Part shown: positions 8,974 through 47,912 of the stretch, piece after piece | Layout of the letters: the number at the start of each line of letters is the position of its first letter | How positions within the stretch are numbered: the stretch's first letter is position 1 | Assembly (NCBI GenBank): GCA_017521465.1 | Contig: JAFXCN010000005.1 | Coordinates: 1-62,915, forward strand | Length of the DNA: 62,915 bases | Direction: 5' to 3' | Origin: Clostridia bacterium | GTDB taxonomy: Bacteria > Bacillota > Clostridia > TANB77 > UBA1234 | Position numbers and translations under genes: made by a program | The notes under the pieces: generated by a model | Told to the model about the DNA's origin: nothing | The model's database searches: none | The model's input: the letters and a program-made list of their open reading frames with translations, nothing else

Positions 8974-9088
8974 ATTATCATTCCAAATCAATGTAACGCA
9001 GTTCGTTTTTGCAGACGGCCGCTGCGCGGGCGGCGATTCGCCCTTTTCCGTCTGCAAAAAAGATTCCTTCGGAATCTTTGATCCGCAC
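8974..9088 (+). repeat. ERIC-like structured element, copy 1 (full)
   Basis: Order of parts: CATTCCAAAT, conserved GTAACGCAGTTCG, outer stem TTTTTGCAGACGG/CCGTCTGCAAAAA, inner hairpin GGGCG-gcgatt-CGCCC, then 3' hairpin AAGATTCC-TTC-GGAATCTT and TTTGA. It begins about 11 bp past the pncB stop. Orientation of this copy is taken as reference. Confidence 0.9.
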
Positions 9089-9098
9089 ATTAATTTTC

Positions 9099-10535
9099 TC
9101 AAAAGTAAATGCTATTCAGCATATTATTCTTTAGAATCCACAAATCTTTTGATAAGTCTACGTAGTACATATGTGGTTTTTCTAAACGTTTAATTTCTTC
9201 CCATAATGTTTCTAATTGTTCTTGAGCATATTGCGCAATTTGTTTTAATTCAGGTGTTCTATACACCAATTTACCACTTTCAAATATTTTCTCTTGTAAT
9301 GGCTTGCAAATATAGTTTGTTATTACTTTCTTTTTCCATGGATCTTGTGGATCAAATATTGTATATTCATCTTCCGGAATTTTTTCATCATGTAGCGCTA
9401 TAACATCTGCTATCGCTTTATTAGTTTCTTTATCATAGAATCTATATACCTTTTTATAACTTGGATTTGTTACTTTAATTGCAGTTTCACTCACTTTTAT
9501 TTTTGGAACTATTTTTCCTTCTTTTTCTGTTGCCACCAATTTATATACTCCGCCAAATACAGGCTCACTTTTCGCCGTTATTAGATTTTCGCCTACACCG
9601 AACAAATCTATTTGTGCACCTTCTTCTAATAATTCTTTTATAGTTTTTTCATCTAATGAATTTGTTGCACATATTTTGCAATCTTCATATCCTGCCTTAT
9701 CTAATCTTTCTCTAACTTTTTTTGATAAATATGCTAAATCTCCACTATCAAGTCTAACGGCTTTTGGTCGTATCCCCTTTGGTTTTAATACTTCATCAAA
9801 TACTTTTATTGCATTTGGAAGTCCGCTCTCTAGAGTATTATATGTGTCAATTAATAACGTACAATCATACGGATATATTTCTGCATAAGCTTTGAACGCT
9901 TCATATTCTGAATCAAACATTTGAATCCAACTGTGTGCCATCGTTCCACTTGCAGTTACATTATATTCTTTTGCCGATAATGTGCAAGAAGTTCCAACTG
10001 CACCACCAATTATTGCAGCTCTTGCACCAGAGAACGCAGCATCTATTCCATGTGCTCGTCTCGCACCAAATTCCATTACAGGTCTTCCTTTTGCTTGATT
10101 TACTATTCTGCTTGTTTTCGTTGCTATTAAACTTTGATGATTAATTGTAAGCAATACCATTGTTTCTAATAATTGTGCTTCTATAATTGGAGCTCTAACT
10201 GTCATTAATGGTTCATTTGGAAACACCACTGTTCCTTCAGGAATAGCCCAAATGTCGCCTGTAAATTTAAATTCTTTTAGATAGTGTAAAAAATCTTCTG
10301 AAAATTTATTTTGTGTACGTAAATAATCAATTTCTTCTTCATCAAATTCAAGATTCTTGACAAAATCTATTACTTGTTCTAATCCAGCTACAATAACATA
10401 TCCTCCACCATCCGGTACTCTTCTAAAAAACACATCGAAATATGCGACAGTGTCTTTCATTCCTTTTGTAAAATATCCATTTGACATAGTATATTCATAA
10501 AAATCCGCGATCAATTCTAATTTTTTGCTATCCAT
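9099..10535 (-). CDS. pncB: Nicotinate phosphoribosyltransferase
   Basis: PncB makes nicotinate mononucleotide from nicotinate and PRPP, with ATP hydrolysis, in the Preiss-Handler route to NAD. The 478-residue length is normal. Recognisable motifs are FYEYTMSNGYF near the N-terminus, FGARRAHGIDAAFSGARAA, GTMAHSWIQMF with the phosphorylatable His region, DTYNTLESG, and VRLDSGDLA for PRPP binding. The ATG at 10535 has AGGAGAG 8 nt upstream; an in-frame GTG at 10544 is too close to that site. It is divergent from nrtR, and its promoter carries a palindrome like those at nrtR and the EIIC-like gene, so NAD-responsive repression is likely. Confidence 0.95.
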   Translation of the reverse strand: MDSKKLELIADFYEYTMSNGYFTKGMKDTVAYFDVFFRRVPDGGGYVIVAGLEQVIDFVKNLEFDEEEIDYLRTQNKFSEDFLHYLKEFKFTGDIWAIPEGTVVFPNEPLMTVRAPIIEAQLLETMVLLTINHQSLIATKTSRIVNQAKGRPVMEFGARRAHGIDAAFSGARAAIIGGAVGTSCTLSAKEYNVTASGTMAHSWIQMFDSEYEAFKAYAEIYPYDCTLLIDTYNTLESGLPNAIKVFDEVLKPKGIRPKAVRLDSGDLAYLSKKVRERLDKAGYEDCKICATNSLDEKTIKELLEEGAQIDLFGVGENLITAKSEPVFGGVYKLVATEKEGKIVPKIKVSETAIKVTNPSYKKVYRFYDKETNKAIADVIALHDEKIPEDEYTIFDPQDPWKKKVITNYICKPLQEKIFESGKLVYRTPELKQIAQYAQEQLETLWEEIKRLEKPHMYYVDLSKDLWILKNNMLNSIYF

Positions 10536-10552
10536 ATTAATCACTCTCCTTT

Positions 10553-10590
10553 GTTAGTATCATTATATTACTATCAACTTTAATTGTCAA
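10553..10590 (-). promoter_or_regulatory. pncB promoter with NrtR-like operator
   Basis: On the minus strand TTGACA (10590-10585) and TATAAT (10567-10562) have 17-bp spacing. Overlapping them, half-sites GTTAGTAT and CTATCAAC flank 10 bp at 10553-10578. Confidence 0.65.
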
Positions 10591-10605
10591 TATTTTTCTC
10601 AATTC

Positions 10606-10654
10606 TTGCTATTTTTTTTAGATAATGTTATATTGATATTATCAACATAACATT
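10606..10654 (+). promoter_or_regulatory. nrtR promoter with near-perfect 31-bp palindrome
   Basis: TTGCTA (10606-10611) and TATATT (10629-10634) are 17 bp apart. A 31-bp near-palindrome (10624-10654, outer arms AATGTTAT/ATAACATT, inner TTGATA/TATCAA) covers the -10 box and the start site, which fits autoregulation. Confidence 0.65.
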
Positions 10655-10674
10655 TGTGAAAGGTTGTGATTTTA

Positions 10675-11565
10675 TTGAAAAATATATCCGAAGACGCTTT
10701 AACCGAAAAAGAATTTTTAGAAAAATATGATATGAGTAAATATTTTAGACCTAGTGTAACAGTAGATGCAATACTTTATACAATTGGTGAAACGCATGTA
10801 GATAATTACAGAAAGCTATCCGAAAAACAACTAGAAGTTCTTTTAATAAAAAGAAATGCTCATCCTTTTAAAAATGTTTGGGCTTTCCCTGGAAAATTTA
10901 TTCAAGAAGATGAAACTTTTTTAGATGCTATAAATAATTGTATTGAAAGCAAAGTGCATGTTAATAATATTTATCTTGAGCAATTATATACATGGGGCGA
11001 TCCAAATCGTGATCCACGAGGAAGAATTATAAGCGCTTCATACATGGGATTAGTATCTAAAGAAACATCAAAAATTGTAGAATCTGATACTCTTAAATGG
11101 TTTTCCGTAAAAGTAAATACACTTTCCGAATTAATGAAGGAAACTAAATCTGGATACAAAAAAACTGAGGATATAGAAATAATCTTAACAGCTGATGAAA
11201 TTGTATTGAAGAACAAAGTTCGTGTCGTTAAAGAACTTAAAAATGGAGATTTAATAATATATACACAAATATTAAAATCTGATTTAGCATTTGACCATGC
11301 AAAACTTTTAATATATTCTCTTGAAAGACTAAAAAACAAAGTTGAATACACAACGATTGCCTTTAACTTATTACCTGAAAAATTTACTTTAACAGAACTA
11401 CAACAAGTTTATGAAGTATTATTAGATAAACCATTATTAAAAGCAAACTTCCGAAGAAAAATTGCAGATATGGTAATTGAAACAGATTTTTACGATGAAT
11501 TTGCAGGTCATAGGCCATCGAAACTTTATTGTTTTAATAAGAATTATCAATCGCATATGTTTTGA
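10675..11565 (+). CDS. nrtR: NrtR-type NAD-metabolism regulator (Nudix-like sensor plus winged helix)
   Basis: The N-terminal ~175 residues are Nudix-like (SVTVDAILYTI, LLIKRNAHPFKNVWAFPGKF, WGDPNRDPRGR). The C-terminal ~90 residues resemble the NrtR winged helix (FTLTELQQVYEVLL, NFRRKIADM). The Nudix box is degenerate: where REUxEE is expected the sequence reads NCIESKV, so catalysis is probably lost and the domain should only bind an ADP-ribose-like ligand. NrtR represses NAD genes until ADP-ribose lifts it. Divergence from pncB supports this strongly. TTG at 10675 is preferred because AAAGG is too close to the GTG at 10666, but that start cannot be excluded. Confidence 0.88.
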   Translation: MKNISEDALTEKEFLEKYDMSKYFRPSVTVDAILYTIGETHVDNYRKLSEKQLEVLLIKRNAHPFKNVWAFPGKFIQEDETFLDAINNCIESKVHVNNIYLEQLYTWGDPNRDPRGRIISASYMGLVSKETSKIVESDTLKWFSVKVNTLSELMKETKSGYKKTEDIEIILTADEIVLKNKVRVVKELKNGDLIIYTQILKSDLAFDHAKLLIYSLERLKNKVEYTTIAFNLLPEKFTLTELQQVYEVLLDKPLLKANFRRKIADMVIETDFYDEFAGHRPSKLYCFNKNYQSHMF

Positions 11566-11589
11566 TAAATTTAAAGAATAATAAATAAA

Positions 11590-11629
11590 GAATATGTAAA
11601 AAATAATATTTATTATTTTTTACATATTC
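11590..11629 (+). terminator. AT-only terminator hairpin after nrtR
   Basis: A perfect 19-bp inverted repeat (11590-11608 with 11611-11629, arm GAATATGTAAAAAATAATA) has a 2-nt loop and is followed shortly by CTTTTTTT. Confidence 0.7.
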
Positions 11630-11697
11630 ACTATTCTTTTTTTATACGACTGTTTGACTCAAATAATAATCGCTTTCTCTTTCCCAGAAATTCGTGC

Positions 11698-11812
11698 ATC
11701 ATTCCAATTAAATATAACGCAGTTCGTTTTCGCAGACGGTTAGCTAGCGCGGGCGGCGATTCGCCCTTTTCCGTAAGCGAAAATGTTTCCTTCAGAAACT
11801 TTGAGGCTCACA
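11698..11812 (+). repeat. ERIC-like structured element, copy 2 (full)
   Basis: Same order of parts as copy 1, with stem TTTTCGCAGACGG against CCGTAAGCGAAAA (two mismatches) and 3' hairpin GTTTCC-TTC-AGAAAC. It lies between the convergent ends of nrtR and the EIIC-like gene. Confidence 0.88.
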
Positions 11813-11840
11813 GAAACACCAATAACTATTAGAATTATAT

Positions 11841-11874
11841 AAAAAAGATGCAGGAAAACTCCTGCATCTTTTTT
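11841..11874 (-). terminator. Terminator of the EIIC-like gene
   Basis: AAAAAAGATGCAGGA (11841-11855) is perfectly inverted at 11860-11874. On the minus strand the stem is followed by TTTTTT, and it overlaps the stop at 11873. Confidence 0.85.
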
Positions 11875-12940
11875 ATAATTCTAATTTCATATCTCCGTCT
11901 TTTATCAATTCTTTTTTTCTCATTATTTCACTTACAACCCATGCTATTAATCCCGGAAATACAAAACACATTAATATTATTTTTATAAACACAGTAGTTG
12001 CTGCTTCTGTTTCTAGCATTGTTTGCCATGCCATTATTGGTCCTACTAGGCCTGCTGTCCCCATTCCTCCACCTGATGCATTGCTAGTAATTTTGATAAC
12101 TGTTGTCGAAATCGGTCCAAGAATTGCACTTGCAATAATTGCAGGCAACCAAATAATTGGTTTTTTTACAATATTACCAATTTGTATCATAGATGTTCCA
12201 ATACCTTGAGCTATTAATCCACCCCATTTATTTTCTCTGAAGCTTGCAATTGCAAAACCAATCATATTTGCACAGCAGCCTACTGTTGCAGCACCAGCTG
12301 CTATACCACTTAAATTTAAAATTATTGAAATCGCTGCCGAACTAATTGGCAAAGTAAGTATTATTCCCATTAGCACAGATACTAATATCCCCATTATTAT
12401 TGGTTGCCTTTCAACAGACCAGTTAATCAATTCTCCCAACGCTGTCATAAAACTAGATATTGTAGGTCCAACTAATAATCCAACTGTTCCACCTATCATA
12501 ATTGTTAGAATTGGCACTAATATAATATCAACTTTGGTTTTTCCTGATATAGCTCTACCAACTTCAATTCCTATCAAACTCGCTATAAATGCACCTAATG
12601 GTTCACCTGGACCCGCAAGTGTAATAACTGAATTTGCATATACCGTTCCTGCTATAATCTTACTTGCAAAGGCCCCAATCAAACCAGCCACAGCTGAAGA
12701 AATCACTACTAATGGTGGTGCTTTATATTTCATTGCAACGCCTACTCCAATACCAGCTCCTGTAAGACTTGCACAAACTTTACCAATTACTACTATTGTA
12801 TTTCCTATTTCTCCTCCAATTAATAGCCCTATTTGCTCTATTATAAGTCCAATAATTAAAGTACAAAATAGTCCCCACGACATACCTGTCAACCCATCTA
12901 CAAAGATATGTTTTAAAACTGTTTTCAATTTTTCTTTCAT
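11873..12940 (-). CDS. PTS_EIIC_2-like polytopic membrane transporter
   Basis: The 355-residue protein has about nine or ten hydrophobic helices and Gly-rich loops (VCASLTGAGIGVGVAMKYKA, GPGEPLGAFIASLIGIEVGR, GGGMGTAGLVGP) that resemble the orphan EIIC family PTS_EIIC_2. No EIIA or EIIB is encoded nearby, so it may transport without phosphorylation. Substrates of this family are not established as far as I know. Its perfect promoter is overlapped by a palindrome similar to those at pncB and nrtR, so I infer a link to pyridine or NAD-precursor uptake. The adjacent divergent upp makes a nucleobase an alternative. AAGGAGGG precedes the ATG. Confidence 0.75.
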   Translation of the reverse strand: MKEKLKTVLKHIFVDGLTGMSWGLFCTLIIGLIIEQIGLLIGGEIGNTIVVIGKVCASLTGAGIGVGVAMKYKAPPLVVISSAVAGLIGAFASKIIAGTVYANSVITLAGPGEPLGAFIASLIGIEVGRAISGKTKVDIILVPILTIMIGGTVGLLVGPTISSFMTALGELINWSVERQPIIMGILVSVLMGIILTLPISSAAISIILNLSGIAAGAATVGCCANMIGFAIASFRENKWGGLIAQGIGTSMIQIGNIVKKPIIWLPAIIASAILGPISTTVIKITSNASGGGMGTAGLVGPIMAWQTMLETEAATTVFIKIILMCFVFPGLIAWVVSEIMRKKELIKDGDMKLEL

Positions 12941-12953
12941 ATCTATCCCTCCT

Positions 12954-13019
12954 TTTTGATATTATCGTTTTAATAATATCTTTTGTTAGTATTATATTGG
13001 TAATATCAAAATTTGTCAA
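12954..13019 (-). promoter_or_regulatory. Promoter of the EIIC-like gene with NrtR-like operator
   Basis: On the minus strand TTGACA (13019-13014) and TATAAT (12996-12991) have exact 17-bp spacing. GTTAGTAT...TAATATCAA (12985-13009) covers the core promoter. A second arm, TTTTGATATTA (12954-12964), is a perfect inversion of 13001-13011, so two sites could be bridged. Confidence 0.65.
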
Positions 13020-13105: not shown

Positions 13106-13732
13106 ATGAAAACAATCGTTTTAGACCATCCATTGCTTATACACAAATTATCTATTCTTAGAGATAAGAATACTGGTACAAAAGAATTTAGAGAAATAGC
13201 TGGGGAAATTGCAACAATAATGTGTTATGAAGCTACAAAAGATGCTACTCTAAAAGAAGTTGAAATCGAAACACCAATTACAAAAACAAATGTAAAAAGA
13301 TTAGATGAAAACCAATATGCATTCGTTCCAATTTTACGTGCCGGACTTAGTATGGTTGATGGTGTTTTAAACATGATACCCAATGCAAAAATTGGACATA
13401 TCGGATTGTATAGAAACGAAGAAACATTAGAACCTGTTCCTTACTACTTTAAAGTCCCAAAAGACATTGAAAAAAGAGAAGTAATACTTTTAGATCCTAT
13501 GCTTGCAACTGGTGGTTCAGCTGTGGATGCTATAGCACAAATCAAAAAAAGCGGAGTTACAAAAATCAAATTTTTAGCAATAATTGCAGCTCCTGAAGGT
13601 ATTGAAAGAGTTGAAAGAGAGCATCCAGATGTACAAGTATATTGTGCAACTGTAGATAGTCATTTGAATGAAAATGGCTATATAGTTCCAGGGCTTGGCG
13701 ATGCTGGAGATAGAATATTCGGAACTAAATAA
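13106..13732 (+). CDS. upp: Uracil phosphoribosyltransferase
   Basis: Upp converts uracil and PRPP into UMP for pyrimidine salvage. The 208-residue protein has family-typical length, the PRPP-binding loop [17 protein letters not shown] in the middle-to-late part, [14 protein letters not shown] near residue 75, and the C-terminal uracil-binding [20 protein letters not shown] lies upstream of the ATG. It is monocistronic between the divergent EIIC-like gene and a convergent membrane protein gene, with which it shares a terminator. Confidence 0.96.
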
Positions 13733-47797: not shown

Positions 47798-47912
47798 TAT
47801 CATAGCAAATTGCTGTAACGCAGTTCGCTTCCGCAGACGGCCGCTGCGCGGGCGGCGATTCGCCCTCTTCCGTCAGCGGAAGTGTTTCCTTCGGAAACTT
47901 TGAGATACACAT
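47798..47912 (+). repeat. ERIC-like structured element, copy 6 (full)
   Basis: It has GTAACGCAGTTCG, stem CTTCCGCAGACGG against CCGTCAGCGGAAG, inner hairpin GGGCG/CGCCC and 3' hairpin GTTTCC-TTC-GGAAAC. It lies between the S4 gene stop and the ABC-F promoter. Confidence 0.9.

Follow-up and report, generated by a model that had tools for sequence, protein, structure and literature searches.

What does an EIIC-like membrane protein do among genes of NAD salvage, in a genome without Enzyme I of the phosphotransferase system (PTS)? We asked this of a stretch of 62,915 nucleotides of a Clostridia bacterium (contig JAFXCN010000005.1), hereafter the window, with a composition of 68% A+T and 32% G+C; the genome from which it comes measures 1.4 Mb and is 98% complete. 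The genes lie in the order pncB, nrtR, EIIC-like gene and upp, with families assigned through Pfam and NCBIfam:

9099..10544, minus strand: pncB, nicotinate phosphoribosyltransferase (Pfam NAPRTase_N/C; NCBIfam equivalog NF006695, 725 bits)
10666..11565, plus strand: nrtR, Nudix-like sensor domain and NrtR winged helix (PF21906, 3.5e-22; PF00293, 1.1e-5)
11873..12940, minus strand: EIIC-like membrane protein of family PF13303 (3.8e-99; EIIC fold, Z 16), candidate niacin transporter
13106..13732, plus strand: upp, divergent from the EIIC-like gene (Pfam/NCBIfam)

Both domains of NrtR score above their cut-offs (PF00293 with 25.8 bits, PF21906 with 78.7 bits), while against the NCBIfam equivalog the protein reaches 157.6 bits, under the cut-off of 400, and in the alignment its Nudix catalytic signature is degenerate. 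The EIIC-like protein matches PF13303 (PTS_EIIC_2) with 332 bits at a cut-off of 28.9, and matches none of the NCBIfam models.

Two other features of the window may be recorded here. A Nudix hydrolase gene (PF00293, 8366-8926) lies near pncB and a DUF5662 gene adjoins, the top-scoring operators described below being absent before both. Three copies of a GC-rich element, each about 100 bp long (GCAGACGG...GCGCGGGCGGCGATTCGCCC...CCGT), are dispersed over the window (~8985-9085, 11708-11812 and 47807-47905); the first two are intergenic.

Promoters and predicted operator sites

The following promoters, taken by direct reading, and predicted operators were found:

10562..10590, minus strand: pncB promoter TTGACA-17-TATAAT (-35 at 10590-10585, -10 at 10567-10562)
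10553..10575, no strand assigned: predicted NrtR operator of pncB, GTTAGTAT-cattata-TTACTATC, overlapping the -10 box
10621..10643, no strand assigned: predicted NrtR operator of nrtR (autoregulation), GATAATGT-tatattg-ATATTATC
12991..13019, minus strand: EIIC promoter TTGACA-17-TATAAT (-35 at 13019-13014, -10 at 12996-12991)
12985..13007, no strand assigned: predicted first NrtR operator of the EIIC gene, GTTAGTAT-tatattg-GTAATATC, covering the -10 box
12958..12980, no strand assigned: predicted second NrtR operator of the EIIC gene, GATATTAT-cgtttta-ATAATATC, between promoter and start codon

All four sites have a common geometry, an inverted repeat of 8 bp, a 7-bp spacer and 8 bp that spans 23 bp, and a consensus of about GWTANTAT-N7-ATANTAWC is common to the promoters of pncB, nrtR and the EIIC-like gene. 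The full sites are GTTAGTATcattataTTACTATC (pncB), GATAATGTtatattgATATTATC (nrtR), and GTTAGTATtatattgGTAATATC and GATATTATcgttttaATAATATC (EIIC). The first-pass annotation had reported TTGACA-17-TATAAT followed by TACTAAC at the pncB and EIIC promoters, which is exact and on the minus strand in both cases. It had also described overlapping inverted half-sites at three promoters. These sequences are all present; the pairing of GTTAGTAT with TATCAA, however, was replaced by the 8-7-8 geometry, which fits every site, and the picture of three sites was incomplete, as it missed the second EIIC site (12958-12980), a perfect palindrome downstream of the promoter. TACTAAC by itself occurs 10 times in the window against 8.7 expected, which is not significant, and was rejected as a stand-alone signal for this chance-level count.

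How far do these sites stand out? By consensus score and arm symmetry they rank top among all 23-mers of the window. A matrix built from the sites of relatives gives them scores of 21.6, 21.1, 20.2 and 15.0, compared with 10.6 for the next-best window site and 13.4 for the best across 20 simulated windows. Matches without mismatch in the 1.4-Mb genome are confined to these promoters, from which the pattern was drawn. Matches with one mismatch are many, and one of them lies ahead of pnuC-nadR, an operon in another part of the genome, at a promoter whose TTGACA-to-operator layout is closely similar to that of the window sites; this site played no part in making the search pattern.

Operators and gene order in relatives

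Is the operator conserved beyond the window? With a matrix trained solely on the four sites of the window we scanned 14 relatives' loci, which had been chosen for their NrtR or EIIC genes, the test thus being the position of the hit within the locus. In 13 of the 14, the best match fell in the promoter of nadD, pncB, nrtR or EIIC. An operator upstream of EIIC orthologues, on which the first-pass annotation had staked its proposal, was found both directly and by way of operons. The EIIC gene has its own predicted operator in five relatives (L054, L055, L057, L058 and L069). In an apparent operon nadD-nadE-EIIC (L056), the nadD-nadE promoter carries two operators, and in apparent operons pncB-EIIC (L060-L063) the operators lie before pncB; in both arrangements the EIIC gene has none of its own. 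One further locus, L064, yielded no operator site. Tandem conserved sites precede nadD in several genomes.

The EIIC gene stands beside nadD-nadE or pncB in most of the 11 EIIC genomes of the window's order. The gene runs read nadD, nadE, EIIC (G058, G097, G108, G066 and L069), pncB-EIIC (G005, G007, G008 and G092) or EIIC-pncB (L070). A strong NrtR homologue occurs in 11 of 11 EIIC genomes of the order, as opposed to 16 of the 103 others (P=2e-8, uncorrected for kinship). The order also lacks nadA in all of its 114 genomes, against a presence in 12 of 14 control genomes, and because of this absence its members are likely NAD auxotrophs that depend on NAD precursors. NiaR was not found above cut-off in any of the same 114 genomes.

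Some other arrangements were seen among the relatives. In G020, an NrtR-type operator (L068:675-697) precedes a NUDIX-like gene and then pncB, which suggests a further regulon member. In G010 (L067), NrtR is present, no EIIC was found, and a nucleotidyltransferase-like gene and pnuC lie before nrtR, as if PnuC had replaced the EIIC-like transporter. On contig C6 of G000 (L154:706-1431), a second NrtR-like protein has a winged helix, and a Nudix match could not be recognised in it; close to its gene lie another PnuC-like gene and one of radical-SAM type.

Proposed function of the EIIC-like protein

As an explanation of the whole, we consider it probable that the locus forms the central part of an NAD salvage regulon under NrtR, which includes a PF13303 niacin permease, in an organism without nadA. 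The regulon and its link to NAD salvage, as first suggested, find computational support in the sites, the cross-species matrix and pnuC-nadR. In the mechanism that we propose, in which NrtR binding, the response to ADP-ribose, transport, substrate and energetics are what we infer, pncB, nrtR, the EIIC-like gene and pnuC-nadR would each have NrtR dimers bound to the 23-bp inverted repeat on or close to their -10 box, and with NAD plentiful the bound repressor would block transcription. Upon NAD turnover, ADP-ribose, the usual effector of NrtR, would rise, NrtR would release and the salvage genes would be expressed. The EIIC-like protein would work as an EIIC-fold permease independent of the PTS, as a uniporter or a secondary transporter, and import niacin (nicotinate, possibly nicotinamide), which PncB would trap as nicotinate mononucleotide for NadD and NadE.

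Judging from its genomic context, the EIIC-like protein is most likely an importer of an NAD precursor. Three points favour niacin: some relatives have pncB as an immediate operon partner of the EIIC gene, niacin is what NiaR, discussed below, responds to, and nicotinamide riboside is already provided for by pnuC-nadR. Of the two substrates that the first-pass annotation had held plausible, niacin thus gains, and the riboside becomes less likely, given a separate pnuC-nadR under the same operator. Could the transporter under NrtR carry another NAD precursor or related compound (nicotinamide riboside, nicotinamide mononucleotide, quinolinate or deamido forms), or even be an exporter that relieves excess? 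Regulation by itself names no substrate and the niacin assignment leans on the partnership with pncB in some relatives, but the riboside is served already, the pncB-EIIC runs together with niacin-responsive NiaR control in other genera favour niacin, and repression under plentiful NAD speaks against export, so that we regard this account as unlikely.

Far less probable still is that the protein serves as a PTS sugar permease or as a regulator in the membrane, with control by NrtR explained by energy or redox demands. The Pfam name PTS_EIIC_2 would point that way, and the family has also been labelled 'PfoR, putative toxin regulator'. The EIIC fold itself is real: the AlphaFold2 model is confident (pLDDT 90, pTM 0.82) and matches the EIIC structures of PtsG (8qsr, Z 16.4) and MalT (6bvg, Z 16.2) over 315-322 residues at 11-14% identity, whereby, in the model, the EIIC name is correct as a name of the fold, which is the full EIIC transporter fold. 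A sequence search of solved structures gave no convincing match. The protein is alike in overall fold to the glucose/maltose-type PTS EIIC proteins, and differs from them in its low identity and in a host genome without Enzyme I. Indeed, Enzyme I (PF05524) is absent from the window genome at 98% completeness, and for this reason the EIIC-like protein cannot be an ordinary PTS permease there; the initial remark that no PTS partners lie nearby is therefore borne out more strongly than it was made. Enzyme I is missing in 9 of the 11 EIIC genomes of the order, the window's included, and present in G030 and G058. No EIIA or EIIB was recognised among the neighbouring genes that were read, and the genomic partners are NAD genes. 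Glucose-type EIICs use a conserved Glu and His; among 43 homologues of the family no Glu or His is conserved at a level of at least 90%, in a comparison whose active-site columns were not structurally aligned.

We give least credence to the view that the sites are a resemblance among AT-rich promoters and no operator of the window's NrtR: the 68% A+T of the window, the chance-level TACTAAC and a consensus derived from the sites themselves would fit it, but the window-only matrix works across species, pnuC-nadR was recovered, the simulated controls score lower and the sites before nadD are conserved in tandem in several genomes.

The wider family and known systems

Is control by NrtR, and with it the proposed import of niacin, a common trait of PF13303? 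The family occurs in 128 of the 291 sampled genomes of the class, and we compared 80 homologous loci, chiefly from other Clostridia and some from Bacilli. In these 80 loci, pncB or nrtR is mostly missing nearby, and a clustering of neighbours did not give homologues of the window's pncB and nrtR as common partners. Across the class, EIIC and NrtR show no co-occurrence (P=0.18), and NrtR control thus looks special to the window's order.

This wider family supplied the strongest further evidence. A different element often lies upstream of EIIC in the 80 loci, the word TGACAAGACA, commonly followed by a TGTA-type half. Of its 32 exact occurrences, 28 fall within the 2.4% of sequence directly upstream of EIIC (P ~1e-41, a descriptive value, the word having come from those same upstream regions). 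This box is similar to the type I NiaR site of the literature, TGT-N4-ACA with a CTTG centre, but reads TGTCTTGTCA here. The niaR gene adjoins EIIC in 20 of the 80 loci, three of these genes being confirmed as HTH_11 plus 3H, and lies no more than 3 kb from EIIC in 15 of the 291 class genomes, with about 0.1 expected; NiaR is present in 48 of the 128 EIIC genomes, a modest association (P=0.014). In G316 the order is nadA-nadB-nadC-niaR-EIIC (nadA, nadB and nadC identified by eye), with the box before nadA and before EIIC. From sequence, NiaR thus appears to regulate the PF13303 family across Clostridia. Both niaR and the box are missing from more than half of the 80 loci, and the family therefore need not have one common substrate. 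Two unrelated NAD repressors, NrtR in the window's order and NiaR elsewhere, appear to control PF13303; import of an NAD precursor is the simplest account of this double control. Such control would illustrate neatly how one transporter can change its regulator between lineages.

Is such a transporter new? The first-pass annotation took the role to be undescribed for this family, which is doubtful, since the family appears NiaR-regulated across Clostridia and NiaY could be the same. The vitamin B3 transporter families named in the literature consulted are NiaP, NiaX and NiaY. NiaP, NiaX and PnuC are likewise proposed to take up NAD precursors under the control of NAD-responsive repressors, and are protein families other than PF13303 with its EIIC fold. 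The SEED role 'Predicted nicotinate-regulated transporter BH3254' may be the PF13303 family. A search of the literature on PF13303, COG3641 or PfoR in connection with niacin returned nothing relevant. In PMC5343564, which cites Rodionov 2008, NiaY is a predicted niacin transporter of NiaR regulons, a membrane protein of Bacilli and Clostridia whose niacin uptake was proposed from genomic context. Compared by that description only, it belongs to NiaR regulons, as the PF13303 homologues behind niaR appear to do. NiaY may be PF13303 because PF13303 sits so clearly with niaR, and we hold the chances of identity to be about even. If they are the same, the transporter prediction is already known, and what is possibly new is the control by NrtR, the wide distribution and an EIIC fold without Enzyme I; if NiaY differs, PF13303 would be a further B3 transporter family. 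Either answer would be useful, as NiaP, NiaX and NiaY were detected in just 25% of B3-auxotrophic human gut genomes (PMC6593275).

Tentatively, and with rather more doubt than confidence, we propose that the whole EIIC-fold family PF13303, with its 128 of 291 class genomes, has lost its tie to the PTS and transports vitamin B3 as a family separate from NiaP, NiaX and NiaY. Depending on the lineage its repressor would be NiaR or NrtR, and it would fill much of the gap of missing B3 transporters in gut Firmicutes. If PF13303 carries niacin, many auxotrophs would gain a defined uptake route, the EIIC fold would work without phosphotransfer, and the family name, that of a sugar PTS, would mislead metabolic models.

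Among known systems, the NrtR regulon of Shewanella is another regulon of NAD metabolism close to the one proposed here. SsNrtR of Streptococcus sobrinus is likewise a repressor with a Nudix-like domain, a winged helix and a degenerate catalytic signature, as in the window, and its targets are pncB and pnuC-nadR, as predicted here (PMC12735969). The operator sequence of the NrtR family is lineage-specific (PMC4666351), and that of the window is in line with this. Compared with the known NrtR regulons, the predicted targets here add the PF13303 EIIC-like gene and, in relatives, nadD-nadE.
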